From Terriglobia bacterium (lineage in GTDB: Bacteria > Acidobacteriota > Terriglobia > Bryobacterales > Bryobacteraceae): DNA of 64,000 nucleotides. The stretch covers positions 1 to 64,000 of the forward strand of contig JAIQFN010000024.1 in the NCBI GenBank assembly GCA_020073265.1. The letters run 5' to 3'. This document shows, piece after piece, positions 29,147-33,687 of this stretch. Every line of letters begins with the position of its first letter. Position 1 is the stretch's first letter. Under the pieces are notes generated by a model. It worked only from the letters and a program-made list of their open reading frames with translations, did no database searches and had not been told where the DNA came from. A program made the translations under genes and the position numbers.

Positions 29147-29629
29147 CTAGCTGCAGAGGTCCTTCGGCAGTCTCACGCCGCAGAGTTCGCCCAGCCTCGC
29201 CTCGGTGGCCTGCACGCGGCCGGCGGCCAGAGACAGCGCGCGGCGGAACACTGCGAGGGCGAGTTCCGGATCGGTCTTAAAAGCAGCCGCGAGGTCGTCC
29301 CTATCGATGCACAGCGCGCGGCTATGCTCGCGAGCGCGAACCCGAAAAAGCGTGTCGTGACGGTCCAGCAGCGCGGACCAGCCGAACGCATCACCTGGTC
29401 CAAGCGCTTGGATAGAAACCAGATAGGACGGTGCGCTGACCTCCACGCACACGTTGCCTGAAAGCATCAGGTAGAAGTTCCTGGACTGCTCCCCGGCCGA
29501 TAGGATCGACTCGTTCTCTTCGAAAGTTACCTCGTGGGACAGGGCCATCAACTTGGCGACCTGCAGATCGTTCATTCCGGCTAAGAAACTGTGTTCTTTC
29601 GCTGCGTTGGTCAGCGTCATATCACTCAT
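29147..29629 (-). CDS. Cyclic nucleotide-binding domain protein
   Basis: 160 residues with a Crp/Fnr-type cNMP-binding beta-roll: ESILSAGEQSRNFYLMLSGNVCVEV, then ALGPGDAFGWSALL and ARALCIDRDDLAAAF-like text. There is no helix-turn-helix behind the roll; the C-terminal helices end in KDLCS, so it is a stand-alone sensor domain. The phosphate-binding cassette is atypical: GDAFGWSAL in place of GE(I/L)(A/G)LL-x-x-x-RxA. It may bind another ligand. ATG 29629 is preferred over the upstream TTG at 29650. It converges with the Lgt-like gene, and an adenylate cyclase lies at 60.5-62.1 kb. Confidence 0.75.
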   Translation of the reverse strand: MSDMTLTNAAKEHSFLAGMNDLQVAKLMALSHEVTFEENESILSAGEQSRNFYLMLSGNVCVEVSAPSYLVSIQALGPGDAFGWSALLDRHDTLFRVRAREHSRALCIDRDDLAAAFKTDPELALAVFRRALSLAAGRVQATEARLGELCGVRLPKDLCS

Positions 29630-29792
29630 TCCGAGCCACCGGCTCCTCAAAATAATCGTCAGGCGCGACTTAGACGTCGTTCGCGGCTAGGTAATGCAAA
29701 TCAGTAGCCAGTTTTTCCACGAGAGGAAAGCGCCTATTCACCCACTTTGATGAAGTCCAAAGATGATGTCCGGCTTCCGCCAGGAGAAAACG

Positions 29793-31649
29793 ATGCCCCA
29801 AGCCGCTAAACACAAGATCGTGATCGTCGAAGACGAAGGCCTGATTGCCGCCGATCTGGAATCCAGGCTGAAAAAAGCCGGTTACTCCGTACCAGGTACC
29901 GCGGACTCGGCGCAGAAGGCGCTTGAAGTGATCGAGAAGACCTCGCCTGACCTGGTCCTGATGGACATCCGGCTGAAGGGCAAGGAAGACGGAATCCAGG
30001 TTGCCGACCTGGTGCGCGAAAAACTCGACATCCCGGTGGTCTATCTGACCGCCTACGAGGATCATGGCACGCTGGAACGCGCCGGGCGCACCCAGGCCTT
30101 CGGCTACATCAAGAAACCGATCGCGACCGCCAGCCTGAAGGGCGCCATCGAGATCGCCCTGTCCAAGTATCGCTTCGAACGGGACCTGCGCGAGGAGCGC
30201 GACTGGGCGATCGCCAGTTTCGCGGCCGTGCCGTATGCGGTCCTGGTCACCGATGGATTCGGCCGAGTCACCTACATCAACTCTCAGGCCGAGGAACTGG
30301 CCGGCTGGAGCGTGGACAAGGCCCTGGGCCGCCCCGTCGCGGAAGTCTTGCGGCTCTGCTCTCGCGAGACTGGAACGCCGGTTGAGGACCTGGTGCCGCT
30401 GGCGATGCTCCACGGACAGACCGTTCCATTGCCGGACAACATTTACCTGAAGGGCAGCCAGGAGCGCGTCTACGCGATCGAGGGCAACATAGCGCCGCGC
30501 TGGCGCAACGGGCGGCTGGAAGGCACCGTCATCGCGCTCACGGATGTGACGCTCCAACGGTTCGAAGCTGGACAATTGCGTCAGGAAAACAAACAGGACG
30601 CGCTGGCTCGCATGGCCGACGGCGTGGTGCGCCACATGCCCGACTTGGGCGAGGTGGCCGAAGAGAGCTCGCGGCTGATCGAGAGTCTGCCCCAAGACAG
30701 CCCGCTGCGGGGGAGCGTGGAACGAATCGAGAAGGCCGCCATGGACGCCTTCGCCACCACCTGTCACCTGCGGGCCTTCCTGGAGCCGCCCGATTTCGAT
30801 CTCGAGCGCGTCATGTTGAACGAAGTACTGGCGCGATTCGAAGAGGCTTTCCAAACCATCGAGCCGGGTTTCACCCTGCTGGTGGAGCCGGAGCAGATGC
30901 CAGTTCAGGCCGACGGGTGGCAATTGATGCGCGCGCTGTTGAACACCGTCCTGCATGCTCGCAGCCGGATGCAGCCCGGGACCGGCCTGGTGATGGACGC
31001 AGCCGGCGCGGAACCCGACCAGTTGGGTCAGTGGGTTCGCATCCGCCTCACGTATGCCACGGCGGATGAAGACGCGGCATCGCTCGAGCGCGTCTTCGAA
31101 CCGTCCTGGTCGGGTCCCACCGAGGATCTTCACATCACGCATTCGCTGGTGAAGCGAATGGGAGGGCTGGCGAGCGCGAGGCTGGAGCATGGCAACCTGG
31201 TGCGGTTCGAGATCTTCCTTCCGCGCGTGGAGGTGGCGTCCGCCGGCGCATCCCCTCCCAGGCTGGACGAACCCGCCGTGCTGCTCATCGAGCCCAACCA
31301 GGAGATGCGGCGCGTTTTGCATGTTCATTTCGAGGAGCACGGCTTCAATCTGCTGGAAGCGGCGTGTTGCGAGGAAGCGCTGGTATTGGCGGAACTCTAC
31401 GAAGGGCCGATTCCGCTGGTCATCGCGAATCCCGCGGGCGGCGACCATGCTTCCGCCGGACTGGCGGACCGATTCGCCGCCATCGATCCGGCCATCCGCG
31501 TCCGCCTGATGGACGGCTATGTCGAATCCTGTGATCGAGCGCGCGGAGTTGGCGAATCACCGGCGGTCCGGCATTTGACCAAGTGGGACTTGCTGGCCTG
31601 GGTACGGCAAGCGCTCGGTCAGTCAAGGCCTGCTGTATGCGGGGCTTAG
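29793..31649 (+). CDS. REC-PAS-pseudokinase-pseudoreceiver protein (paralogue 1)
   Basis: 618 residues; ATG 29793 follows an AGGAGA ribosome binding site. Residues about 8-125 are an intact receiver (VEDE acidic pair, VLMDIR phospho-Asp, YLTAYED Thr, YIKKP Lys). A PAS domain (about 140-260, AVPYAVLVTDGFGRVTYIN) follows. The next region aligns by pattern with hybrid-kinase HisKA/HATPase domains (QDSPLRGSVERIEKAA, FEPSW, LVKRMGG). However, the HDFNN box reads RHMPD, the N-box Asn is His (LHARSRM) and the glycine boxes are gone. The terminal receiver-like domain has LVIAN where the phospho-Asp should be. It is predicted to be catalytically dead but phosphorylatable at the first receiver. A paralogue lies next door. 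Confidence 0.85.
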   Translation: MPQAAKHKIVIVEDEGLIAADLESRLKKAGYSVPGTADSAQKALEVIEKTSPDLVLMDIRLKGKEDGIQVADLVREKLDIPVVYLTAYEDHGTLERAGRTQAFGYIKKPIATASLKGAIEIALSKYRFERDLREERDWAIASFAAVPYAVLVTDGFGRVTYINSQAEELAGWSVDKALGRPVAEVLRLCSRETGTPVEDLVPLAMLHGQTVPLPDNIYLKGSQERVYAIEGNIAPRWRNGRLEGTVIALTDVTLQRFEAGQLRQENKQDALARMADGVVRHMPDLGEVAEESSRLIESLPQDSPLRGSVERIEKAAMDAFATTCHLRAFLEPPDFDLERVMLNEVLARFEEAFQTIEPGFTLLVEPEQMPVQADGWQLMRALLNTVLHARSRMQPGTGLVMDAAGAEPDQLGQWVRIRLTYATADEDAASLERVFEPSWSGPTEDLHITHSLVKRMGGLASARLEHGNLVRFEIFLPRVEVASAGASPPRLDEPAVLLIEPNQEMRRVLHVHFEEHGFNLLEAACCEEALVLAELYEGPIPLVIANPAGGDHASAGLADRFAAIDPAIRVRLMDGYVESCDRARGVGESPAVRHLTKWDLLAWVRQALGQSRPAVCGA

Positions 31650-31815
31650 AGTGTTGCCAGGGAACGCCCGCGCGGTCGCGGTTGAATCGGGAGGCCGCGC
31701 GCCGGGCACTGGCTTGGCCGCTGCATTGCTAAACTCAAATCGACTCCGACAACCCTGCCAGGCGTGACGGACTTCAACGGGTCGCGTTGCCGACCTCTCA
31801 ATCGAGGAGGCTCGA

Positions 31816-33687
31816 GTGGCAGAGGGTGGCAAACACAAGATCGTCATCGTAGAGGACGAAGGCCTGATCGCCGCCGATTTGGAGGCGCGCCTTAAGAATG
31901 CGGGATATTCCGTGCCTGGCATGGCGGACTCGTCCGAACGGGCCCTCGAAGTAATCCGCAAAACTTCGCCCGACCTGGTCCTCATGGACATCCGCATCAA
32001 AGGGGACGTCGACGGGATCGAAACCGCCGATCAAGTGCGCGAGCAACTCGACATCCCGGTGGTCTATCTGACTGCGTATGAAGACCAGGGGACCTTGGAG
32101 CGCGCCGGCCGGACACAAGCCTTCGGCTATATTAAGAAGCCCATCGCGTCGGCCAGCCTGCGCGGCTCCATCGAGATGGCCATCTCCAAGCACCGTCACG
32201 AACGCATTCTCCGGGCGCAGCGGGACTGGGCCGCCGCCAGCTTCCGGGCGGTGCCCTACGCCGTTCTGGTTACCGACGGGCAGGGCCGGGTCGCCTACCT
32301 GAATTCCCAAGCCGAAGAGCTCACCGGCTGGACCGTCGACCAGGCCCTGGGCCACCCCTGTTCGGAACTGCTGCGTCTCTACGATCGCGAGACTGGAGCG
32401 CCCATGCAGGATTTCGTGCCGGTGGCCATGCTCCAGGGCGAGACGGTGTCTCTGCCCGCGGGGATTTGCCTGAAGCGCGACGAAGCGCATAGCTGCGCGA
32501 TCGAAGGCAGCGTCGCTCCCCGCTGGCGCGAAGGACGCGTCGAAGGTACGGTGATCGCTCTGCGAGACGTGACGCGATCGGGATTCGACCGCGCGCAGGC
32601 CGGGCAGGAAGAGAAGCAGGCAGCGCTGCTGCGCCTGGCCGAGGGGATTTTCCAGCAACTTCCCGACTTGAGCCAAGTGGCGGAAGACAGCCCGCGGCTG
32701 CTGGAGGCTCTGCCTCCGGACAGCCCGATGCGCGAGGAAGTGGAAACCATCGAGCGAGCCGCCATCGACGCGTTTCGCGCCACTAGCCGGCTGCGCGCCT
32801 TTCTGGAACCGCCGGAAGTCCACCCGGAGCGCGTCGGCATCGACGAGGTGCTGCGGCGGCTGGAGTCCGCTTGGAAGATGATCGAGCCCCGGCTCAGCCT
32901 GATGCTCGGTCCCGGGCCGTTGCTGGTTCAGGCGGATCCCTGGCAGCTCAGCCGGGCGCTGGTCAGTATCCTGCTGCACGCCCGCGGCAAGATGCGAGCC
33001 GACGGCATGCTTGCCATCGAGTTGACCGCCGCTGAACACGAGCCCGTGCTCCAGTCGGTTCGCATCCGCGTCAGCTATGCAACCGACGATGAAGACGCAG
33101 CCTCGATGGCGCGGATATTCGAGCCGTCCTGGTCCGGCGCCTCACAAGATCTGCACATCGCCTACCGGCTGGTGAAGAAAATGGGCGGGCTGGTGGCGGC
33201 CCGGGTGGAGCGCGGAGACAACGCCGTCTTCGACGTCTATCTCCCGCTGGTGAAAGCGGCTGCGGCCGCGGCCCCGCTGCCTGAATCGACCCAGCCGGCG
33301 ATCCTGCTGGTGGACGCCAACGCGGAGGTCCGGCGCGTGCTGCACACCCATTTCGAGCGGCACGGCTTCAGGCTGCTGGCTACGGCGGGTTGGGAAGAAG
33401 CCTGGCTGGTGGCCGAGCTGTACCAGGGCACCATCCCGCTGGTGATCGCGAATCTCGCGAGCGGCGACGAAAAGCGCGACTGGCTGGCCGAGAAACTGGG
33501 CGCCCTTCGGCCGGGAATCCAGGTGCGCTTGCTGAGCGGATATTCCGAGCCATGCCGGGCGGCCGCGGGCCGGGCGCTCGAGCCGGCGGCCGAGCGCCAT
33601 CTGACCAAATGGGATCTGCTCGAGTGGGCCAAAGATGCCCTCCCCGGCGGCGCCGAAAGAGGAGCGCACGATGACCGACGCCATTGA
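31816..33687 (+). CDS. REC-PAS-pseudokinase-pseudoreceiver protein (paralogue 2)
   Basis: 623 residues, a tandem duplicate of the previous gene, with most residues identical by eye across REC and PAS. GTG 31816 is preceded by GAGGAGG. The N-terminal receiver keeps VEDE, VLMDIR, YLTAYED and YIKKP. The kinase-like region has FQQLPD where HDFNN is expected, LLHARGKM for the N-box and no glycine-rich ATP lid (SQDLHIAYRLVKKMGG). The last domain has LVDANAEVRRVL and LVIANLAS, again without phospho-Asp. Both copies lost the same residues, so the loss predates duplication. It overlaps the next receiver gene by 17 nt, so the two are coupled. Confidence 0.85.
   Translation: MAEGGKHKIVIVEDEGLIAADLEARLKNAGYSVPGMADSSERALEVIRKTSPDLVLMDIRIKGDVDGIETADQVREQLDIPVVYLTAYEDQGTLERAGRTQAFGYIKKPIASASLRGSIEMAISKHRHERILRAQRDWAAASFRAVPYAVLVTDGQGRVAYLNSQAEELTGWTVDQALGHPCSELLRLYDRETGAPMQDFVPVAMLQGETVSLPAGICLKRDEAHSCAIEGSVAPRWREGRVEGTVIALRDVTRSGFDRAQAGQEEKQAALLRLAEGIFQQLPDLSQVAEDSPRLLEALPPDSPMREEVETIERAAIDAFRATSRLRAFLEPPEVHPERVGIDEVLRRLESAWKMIEPRLSLMLGPGPLLVQADPWQLSRALVSILLHARGKMRADGMLAIELTAAEHEPVLQSVRIRVSYATDDEDAASMARIFEPSWSGASQDLHIAYRLVKKMGGLVAARVERGDNAVFDVYLPLVKAAAAAAPLPESTQPAILLVDANAEVRRVLHTHFERHGFRLLATAGWEEAWLVAELYQGTIPLVIANLASGDEKRDWLAEKLGALRPGIQVRLLSGYSEPCRAAAGRALEPAAERHLTKWDLLEWAKDALPGGAERGAHDDRRH

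Follow-up and report, generated by a model that had tools for sequence, protein, structure and literature searches.

Tandem REC-PAS proteins with a dead histidine kinase core and a dead terminal receiver in a Bryobacteraceae genome, and their relatives beside HisKA_2 kinases

Two adjacent paralogous genes, P1 and P2, lie in a 64,000-nucleotide stretch of DNA (the window) from a Terriglobia bacterium of the Bryobacteraceae (GenBank assembly GCA_020073265.1, 6.41 Mb in 131 contigs; contig JAIQFN010000024.1, positions 1 to 64,000). Each encodes an apparently functional N-terminal receiver (REC1) and a PAS domain, followed by a transmitter (DHp and CA domains) and a last receiver (REC2) that have both lost catalytic residues. 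We consider it somewhat probable that P1 and P2 are response-regulator-like pseudo-histidine kinases, in which the dead transmitter works by conformation or docking after phosphorylation of REC1 by a HisKA_2 kinase; from the evidence below, we infer phosphotransfer, dimerisation, an output by conformation, and which partner is involved.

P1 (29793..31649; 618 amino acids) and P2 (31816..33687; 623 amino acids), both on the plus strand like all other window features given below unless stated, share 62% identity across 607 residues and the architecture REC-PAS-pseudoDHp-pseudoCA-pseudoREC. Neither open reading frame has an internal stop. The first-pass annotation of this DNA had described just such a tandem pair, with a functional first receiver and a PAS domain retained, and both statements held. 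REC1 of P1 spans residues 9-119 (29817..30149; Pfam PF00072, E 3.1e-23) and is followed by the PAS domain (30219..30557; PF08448, E 5.8e-9); the corresponding domains of P2 are located at 31840..32172 (PF00072, E 1.5e-23) and 32242..32577 (PF08448, E 1.2e-9). In the alignment to intact homologues, REC1 of both proteins contains all five active-site residues of a functional receiver (E13, D14, D58, T86, and K108). Pfam, which detected REC and PAS in both proteins, gave no HisKA match in either, and HATPase_c was matched in P2 only, below the cut-off (E 0.076).

The dead transmitter occupies residues 262-480 of P1 (30576..31232, delimited by alignment and an AlphaFold segment model) and 32599..33255 in P2. 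When aligned with intact homologues, the HDFNN H-box is replaced with RHMPD in P1 (residues 280-284, 30630..30644) and QQLPD in P2. The G1-box Asp is replaced with Tyr in both proteins (Tyr421 of P1, 31053..31055), the G1 glycines are absent, and the ATP lid is approximately six residues shorter and does not contain the GxGLGL motif. The second N-box Asn is His in both (His388 of P1, 30954..30956), as claimed earlier, but the first was not lost from P1 (Asn384), while P2 has Ser there. For HisKA_3 kinases, too, a His there is normal; therefore, this substitution alone is no proof of lost ATP binding, and the case for that loss, as read from the alignment, rests on the G1 box and the lid. In the last receiver of P1 (31275..31622), the second acidic residue is Pro, the phospho-Asp is Asn546 (in LVIAN), the Thr position is Asp, and the Lys column has Arg; in that of P2 (33298..33645), the second acidic residue is Ala, the phospho-Asp is Asn, and the Lys column again has Arg. 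Thus, the loss of the phospho-His, of the glycine-rich lid, and of the terminal phospho-Asp reported in the first-pass annotation was borne out against intact homologues. That annotation had also named intact homologues of the same architecture under a better alignment as a point that would tell against it. Such homologues exist (16 proteins), yet P1 and P2 themselves read as dead in four separate alignments, and misalignment was discarded as an explanation.

P1 and P2 have kinase-core homology and fold while missing the phospho-His, the G1 Asp, and the lid motif, as expected of pseudo-histidine kinases. A pseudo-receiver is defined by the absence of any of the five conserved residues DD, D, T, and K (PMC12632262), and the last receiver fits this definition in 21 of the 22 dead-core proteins having one, P1 and P2 among them, the exception being L110. 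An N-terminal REC precedes the DHp-CA core as in the Rec-controlled histidine kinases (LvrB class); however, we did not file P1 and P2 in this class because the catalytic His and the ATP site are missing. The adjacent HisKA_2 kinase (P0005) does have the architecture of this class. Nor do P1 and P2 qualify as hybrid histidine kinases, since both the kinase core and the C-terminal receiver are dead by sequence, although their kinship with such kinases is supported by trees.

The AlphaFold model of whole P1 was poor (pLDDT 59, pTM 0.33); therefore, the DHp-CA segment was modelled alone (pLDDT 73, pTM 0.62). Superposition on known kinases, a check proposed in the first-pass annotation, gave kinase-core matches at Z ~18: in VIA, the segment matched the CA domain of VanSC (Z 18.6, 1.8 Å over 133 residues), RetS, which is a membrane protein with C-terminal receivers (Z 18.6, 5.4 Å over 197 residues), and DivL (Z 18.3, 6.4 Å over 200 residues), and a chain of the RetS-GacS complex was matched at Z 16.9. 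Foldseek on the segment model agreed with these matches, and its top match for the low-confidence whole-P1 model was LvrB. In sequence searches against the PDB, the kinase segment of P1 had only weak matches (best ZraS, E 0.034), while the family profile, helped by the live members it contains, matched CckA and others. The model supports rather than proves that the P1 segment retains a kinase-core fold because AlphaFold may recall kinases, and the match is evidence of fold, not function, because kinases that are active match it as closely as DivL and RetS do.

Relatives were collected by an order-wide profile search (51 of 257 genomes matched at E 1e-60) and a class-wide draw (227 of 399 genomes at the same threshold, from which 30 loci were read). 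A scan of genome contigs added one relative, L021, and a scan of viral contigs gave four weak ones. Genomic context covers 43 proteins; in genus g25, 17 of the 19 genomes matching the order-wide search were read (G210 and G218 were left out). L103 and L106 were used with shortened starts, and small gene distances, including those from stop-to-stop frames, are approximate. By motif checks, 25 proteins from five genera of one acidobacterial family have a dead kinase core: five in the window's genus (g1) and the others in g25, G256 (g87), G128 (g56), and G181 (g72). The dead core as a private feature of the window was thus rejected. REC1 has five of five residues in 24 of these proteins; in L105, where the contig ends within the gene, all three residues that can be read are present. 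The G1 Asp is absent in all 25 (Tyr in 15, His in 6), and the phospho-His is absent in all but L105. The second N-box Asn is His in 22, including L110, but not in G128, G181, and G217; being neither universal among dead proteins nor foreign to HisKA_3 kinases, this change was rejected as proof of kinase death. The last receiver is absent in G128 and G181 and truncated in G004. Its phospho-Asp is Asn in the four g1 proteins having that receiver; outside g1, it is kept in 10 of 18, while the Lys is lost in all 18 but L110.

The 16 live relatives keep the His, both N-box Asn, the G1 Asp, and the phospho-Asp of REC2. Two of them deviate elsewhere: one lid glycine is gapped in L156, and an acidic residue of REC2 is missing from L152. 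G001 and G002, from the same genus as the window, have a dead orthologue followed by a second gene of 526 amino acids. This paralogue (L041:6870-8450, plus strand; L042:6695-8275, minus strand) is half-dead: the His is lost (RDFSR), the ATP boxes are kept, and the last receiver is absent. It may be an intermediate or a heterodimer partner. G004 has a single dead copy with a HisKA_2 kinase gene directly after it, and G003, again of the same genus, has no dead copy, its two matches being other kinases. Two further relatives are partial: L159 (G204) carries Asn in place of both the His and the G1 Asp and keeps the lid, and L150 (G082) keeps the His and the G1 Asp with Asp and His in the N-box.

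Selection was estimated for each domain as omega (the ratio of nonsynonymous to synonymous change) by a counting method. Between P1 and P2, omega was 0.09 for REC1 and 0.22 for PAS, and in the dead domains it was 0.48 (0.25-0.83) for DHp, 0.36 (0.22-0.54) for CA, and 0.34 (0.17-0.55) for REC2; five pairs of the neighbouring kinases gave 0.12-0.21. In six g25 pairs (L095 and L103 each used twice), omega was 0.07-0.27 for DHp, 0.09-0.25 for CA, and 0.09-0.37 for REC2, with upper bounds no higher than 0.70. Synonymous change was saturated in DHp of L108-L109, for which the value was taken from the bootstrap range (0.05-0.17). The G001a-G002a pair had too few differences to be informative for CA and REC2 (intervals reaching 0.99 and 1.34), and neither the linker nor the frameshifted REC2 tail of L021 gave a usable omega. 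These results indicate that purifying selection maintains the dead parts; this is clear in g25, and constraint is looser in the window's lineage. The selection for a non-catalytic role that had been proposed from the two window copies is therefore supported by upper bounds below 1 for P1-P2 and the six g25 pairs, together with the dead core in five genera.

In the full-length tree, the g1 and g25 dead proteins were joined (99/96) and L110 was placed among the live ones. The g1-g25 grouping may reflect shared decayed columns; hence, REC-PAS-only trees were used, which are free of attraction between such columns (these trees exclude L105 and the trimmed L106, in which the N-terminus is missing; the full L106 is in the 43-row tree). 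There, g1 is separate from g25 and adjoins the half-dead pair and the live L111, which has a long branch (90/80). A single origin of all dead proteins was considered. In topology tests, a single g1+g25 clade was not rejected (p-AU 0.109), whereas a clade also holding L110 was (p 1e-66). The best 43-row REC-PAS tree requires four changes to the dead state (g1; g25; G128 and G181; L110), of which the strongly supported branches force at least two. Recurrence of kinase death is therefore well supported; four origins are the best tree's count and are not proven. In the full-length tree, P1 and the G004 copy are sisters and P2 branches outside them (99/97, 100/98); therefore, the duplication appears to predate their split, with P2 apparently lost from G004.

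In the window, P1 and P2 are followed by three genes to form a closely spaced cassette on one strand, the sole larger gap being the 166 bp between P1 and P2. P0003 (33671..34132), overlapping the P2 stop, encodes a single-domain receiver (PF00072, E 7.6e-18) and has counterparts in G001 and G002. P0004 (34156..36813) encodes a DUF4118-PAS-HisKA-HATPase kinase, the motifs of which were read as intact (SHDLRAPL H-box, DNGAGF, and GTGVGL). P0005 (36833..38329) encodes a REC-PAS-HisKA_2-HATPase kinase with an intact H-box (EVHHRVKNN) and is the proposed phosphodonor of P1 and P2. Against NCBIfam models, P0004 matched LvrA in the kinase core (245.5 of 1200 bits), and P0005 matched PhyK and LvrB partially (125.5 of 750 and 95.3 of 500 bits), all far below the cut-offs.

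A HisKA_2 gene with an intact EVHHRVKNN-type H-box lies 0-116 bp away on the same strand at 20 of the 25 dead genes. At four more (P1, P2, G001a, and G002a), the gene is found 3.1-5.2 kb downstream within the cassette, and L105 has no flank to read. Among live and partial relatives, the HisKA_2 gene is within 6 bp on the same strand in 13 of 18, at 2.4-2.9 kb on the same strand in L112 and L152, and 27 bp away on the other strand in L114; it was not in reach at L147 and at L113, the latter near a contig end. Only the H-box of these partners is claimed to be intact, as a strict N-box pattern failed in L110, L145, and L146 and a strict G-box pattern in L108 and L154. The partner of L096 is a REC-HisKA_2 kinase without PAS, the layout of LvrB. 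In seven g25 loci, the flanks are common to L096 and L098, partly to L095 and L103, and differ in the rest; those of the window and of L042 also differ. The HisKA_2 kinase is the sole counterpart of the cassette's other genes at the g25 loci. Counterparts of P0004 were found beside dead genes in G001 and G002 only, with none at the G004 locus; live relatives have one beside them in G102 (41%) and, as a weaker match, in G203 (36%). Thus, the partnership with the two downstream kinases suggested earlier is half supported: P0005 stands as the conserved neighbour, and P0004 does not.

Phosphorylation control through REC1, also part of the earlier proposal, is plausible because the REC1 site is intact wherever it is readable; as to the "scaffold or allosteric partner" role given to these proteins there, we infer such a role rather than observe it. 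In our working model, P0005 would phosphorylate Asp58 of REC1 in P1 and P2, and P0004 would perhaps drive P0005 through the receiver of P0005 itself, as LvrA feeds LvrB by phosphorylating its receiver (PMC5863495). REC1 and PAS would then act on a dimeric helical stalk, as in LvrB, where receiver phosphorylation frees the CA domains (PMC13269768), and the dead but still folded DHp-CA-pseudoREC body would change shape or expose a docking surface. This body may regulate a partner, either the HisKA_2 kinase itself or some other kinase or response regulator, and would do so without phosphate chemistry, in the manner of DivL, which binds DivK~P and has no kinase or phosphatase activity (PMC4211667). 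With a little less confidence, and tentatively, we extend the model to Bryobacterales-type Acidobacteriota: their HisKA_2-paired REC-PAS-kinase-REC proteins may have suffered death of the kinase half repeatedly, approximately four times, and then been kept by selection as convergent response regulators with a dead transmitter as effector and usually a dead receiver, so that a pseudokinase would receive phosphate from the kinase and pass the signal on by conformation alone. The simplest reading of the neighbourhoods is that this REC-PAS front end is a usual target of HisKA_2 kinases and that the output part may be AAA+, a live hybrid kinase, or a dead one.

Several observations weigh against this model. 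The omega of the dead domains between P1 and P2 is approximately four to six times that of REC1, which indicates looser constraint in the window's lineage. The phospho-Asp of the last receiver is kept in 10 of the 22 dead-core proteins having one, and in L110, that receiver is nearly whole (acidic pair, Asp, Ser, and Lys). The pseudoreceiver was lost by a frameshift and a deletion in G004 and is missing from G128 and G181; either it is dispensable or these copies are decaying. Two g25 genomes, G028 and G228, gave no match at E 1e-60 in the class-wide search. The AlphaFold models were built from three sequences only. HisKA_2 adjacency is equally common beside live relatives, which shows a family-wide partnership rather than one specific to dead members, and two of the four HisKA_2 genes of the window's own genome have no such REC-PAS neighbour.

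A rather unlikely alternative, overlapping the working model so that the two are not exclusive, is that the DHp helices of P1 and P2 mediate pairing, either between the two proteins or with a live kinase, whose activity is thereby altered, REC1 phosphorylation setting the pairing. RetS-GacS heterodimers of this kind have been described (PMC12189002), and the tandem paralogues of the window's genome (G000) and the dead and half-dead pair of G001 and G002 would suit it, as would the match of the DHp-CA model to RetS and the RetS-GacS chain, although many kinase cores match likewise. However, the g25 relatives examined have one dead gene beside a HisKA_2 kinase, which belongs to a different DHp class.

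It is unlikely that REC1 serves as a phosphate sink or decoy draining the HisKA_2 kinase, with the remainder as inert ballast. Such a role agrees with REC1 having the lowest omega between P1 and P2 and being intact in every readable dead copy, and tandem copies would raise the capacity. A sink, however, has no need for a dead transmitter of approximately 350 residues, yet this part is near full length in most aligned dead proteins and under purifying selection, and several g25 pairs constrain the dead parts as much as REC1. Slow pseudogenisation of jobless kinases, which we regard as improbable, could draw on the looser omega of the window's lineage, the truncated pseudoreceiver of G004, further erosion in L153 and L154, and the lack of a dead copy in the same-genus G003. 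P1 and P2, on the other hand, have no internal stop, their REC1 and PAS are constrained, omega is well below 1 in the six g25 pairs, and the dead state recurs in five genera. Both of these explanations fit poorly because the dead half is under selection. Least probable is that the altered pocket binds another ligand or a metal or catalyses with an unusual residue, for although the N-box His is widespread, reaching even the tree-separated L110, and Tyr or His often replaces the G1 Asp, no one residue replaces the phospho-His throughout the dead proteins, the lid motif is gone, and G128, G181, and G217 lack the N-box His.

The working model of a phosphorylation-controlled dead transmitter has partial parallels in known systems. 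DivL is likewise a transmitter without autokinase or phosphatase activity that acts by binding in a two-component network (PMC4211667), a parallel we propose for P1 and P2. DivL, however, carries Tyr in place of the phospho-His and retains weak TNP-ATP binding (57 µM), whereas P1 and P2 lack the G1 Asp and the lid motif. They also have an intact receiver at the N-terminus, as input, and a dead one at the C-terminus. The phosphorylated regulator read by DivL is a separate protein, in trans, while the phosphorylatable receiver of P1 and P2 would be in cis. The resemblance seen between DivL and P1 is one of fold. LvrB also has REC N-terminal to the DHp-CA core and is encoded with another kinase (PMC5863495, PMC13269768), and P0005 has this Rec-controlled architecture with an added PAS. 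LvrB autophosphorylates at His161, which P1 and P2, carrying PAS and an extra dead receiver, cannot do judging by their sequence. In CikA, ShkA, and PleD, a receiver without active-site residues is attached to a transmitter or another module, and the pseudoreceiver of ShkA binds its HisKA domain (PMC12632262); there, the transmitter or output enzyme is catalytic, whereas the kinase core of P1 and P2 is dead too. RetS is a kinase-fold regulator that heterodimerises with another kinase but is described as siphoning phosphate from, and dephosphorylating, GacS (PMC12189002). The intact REC-PAS-HisKA(HDFNN)-HATPase-REC hybrids, such as L112 (G102), have the architecture of P1 and P2 at 33-34% identity but keep the His, both N-box Asn, the G1 Asp, the lid glycines, and the REC2 Asp. 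The L112 locus has the window's four gene kinds with the order of kinase and lone receiver swapped.

Pseudo-histidine kinases and pseudoreceivers are already an accepted concept (PMC12632262); what is new here is the REC-gated, kinase-paired, and recurrent form. In the one literature collection searched, no report was found of REC-gated proteins in which the kinase core and the last receiver are both dead, of their HisKA_2 pairing, or of their recurrence, nor of pseudo-histidine kinases in Acidobacteria. The 2025 review calls pseudoreceiver mechanisms a mystery and counts 0.9% of HisKA domains (722 of 76,471) as lacking the His (PMC12632262); counts based on HisKA matches would miss P1 and P2 because Pfam gives them no such match. 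Within a single architecture, the family includes homologues that are live, half-dead, and dead; catalysis seems to have been lost several times separately, and the candidate kinase partner stays the same. Therefore, the role of a transmitter after loss of catalysis can be addressed by comparison and simple biochemistry. The dead transmitter would be a switch or docking part, not an enzyme.

Upstream of P1, a small protein with a cyclic-nucleotide-binding domain (29147-29650, minus strand; PF00027, E 2e-14) is encoded and transcribed away from P1. Comparison of the regions upstream of P1 and P2 gave nothing beyond a 23-base match at the gene starts and shorter ones that resemble chance matches. 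Elsewhere, the window's own genome has four HisKA_2 matches in 6.4 Mb, one of them in the P1/P2 cassette. On contig C131 (L163:3543-6443), a HisKA_2 kinase gene lies approximately 20 bp upstream of a gene for a REC-PAS-AAA+ regulator, whose REC-PAS part is 37% identical to that of P1 and is, after P2, the best match to P1 in this genome. Two hybrid kinases, L009 (own genome, C10:120703-121758) and L094 (G003, C250), keep the H-box (MAHDLNNML) and the last-receiver Asp with degenerate N- and G-boxes; judging from these motifs, they are possibly phosphotransfer-only proteins, which we take to resemble ChpT/Spo0B. In L032, L033, L038, L136, L137, L139, and L142 (G005, G034, G018, G253, G005, G161, and G026, respectively), HDFNN is replaced with GDFNN (His to Gly), and the ATP boxes and the last-receiver Asp look intact, so these are possibly ATP-binding, His-less hybrids.

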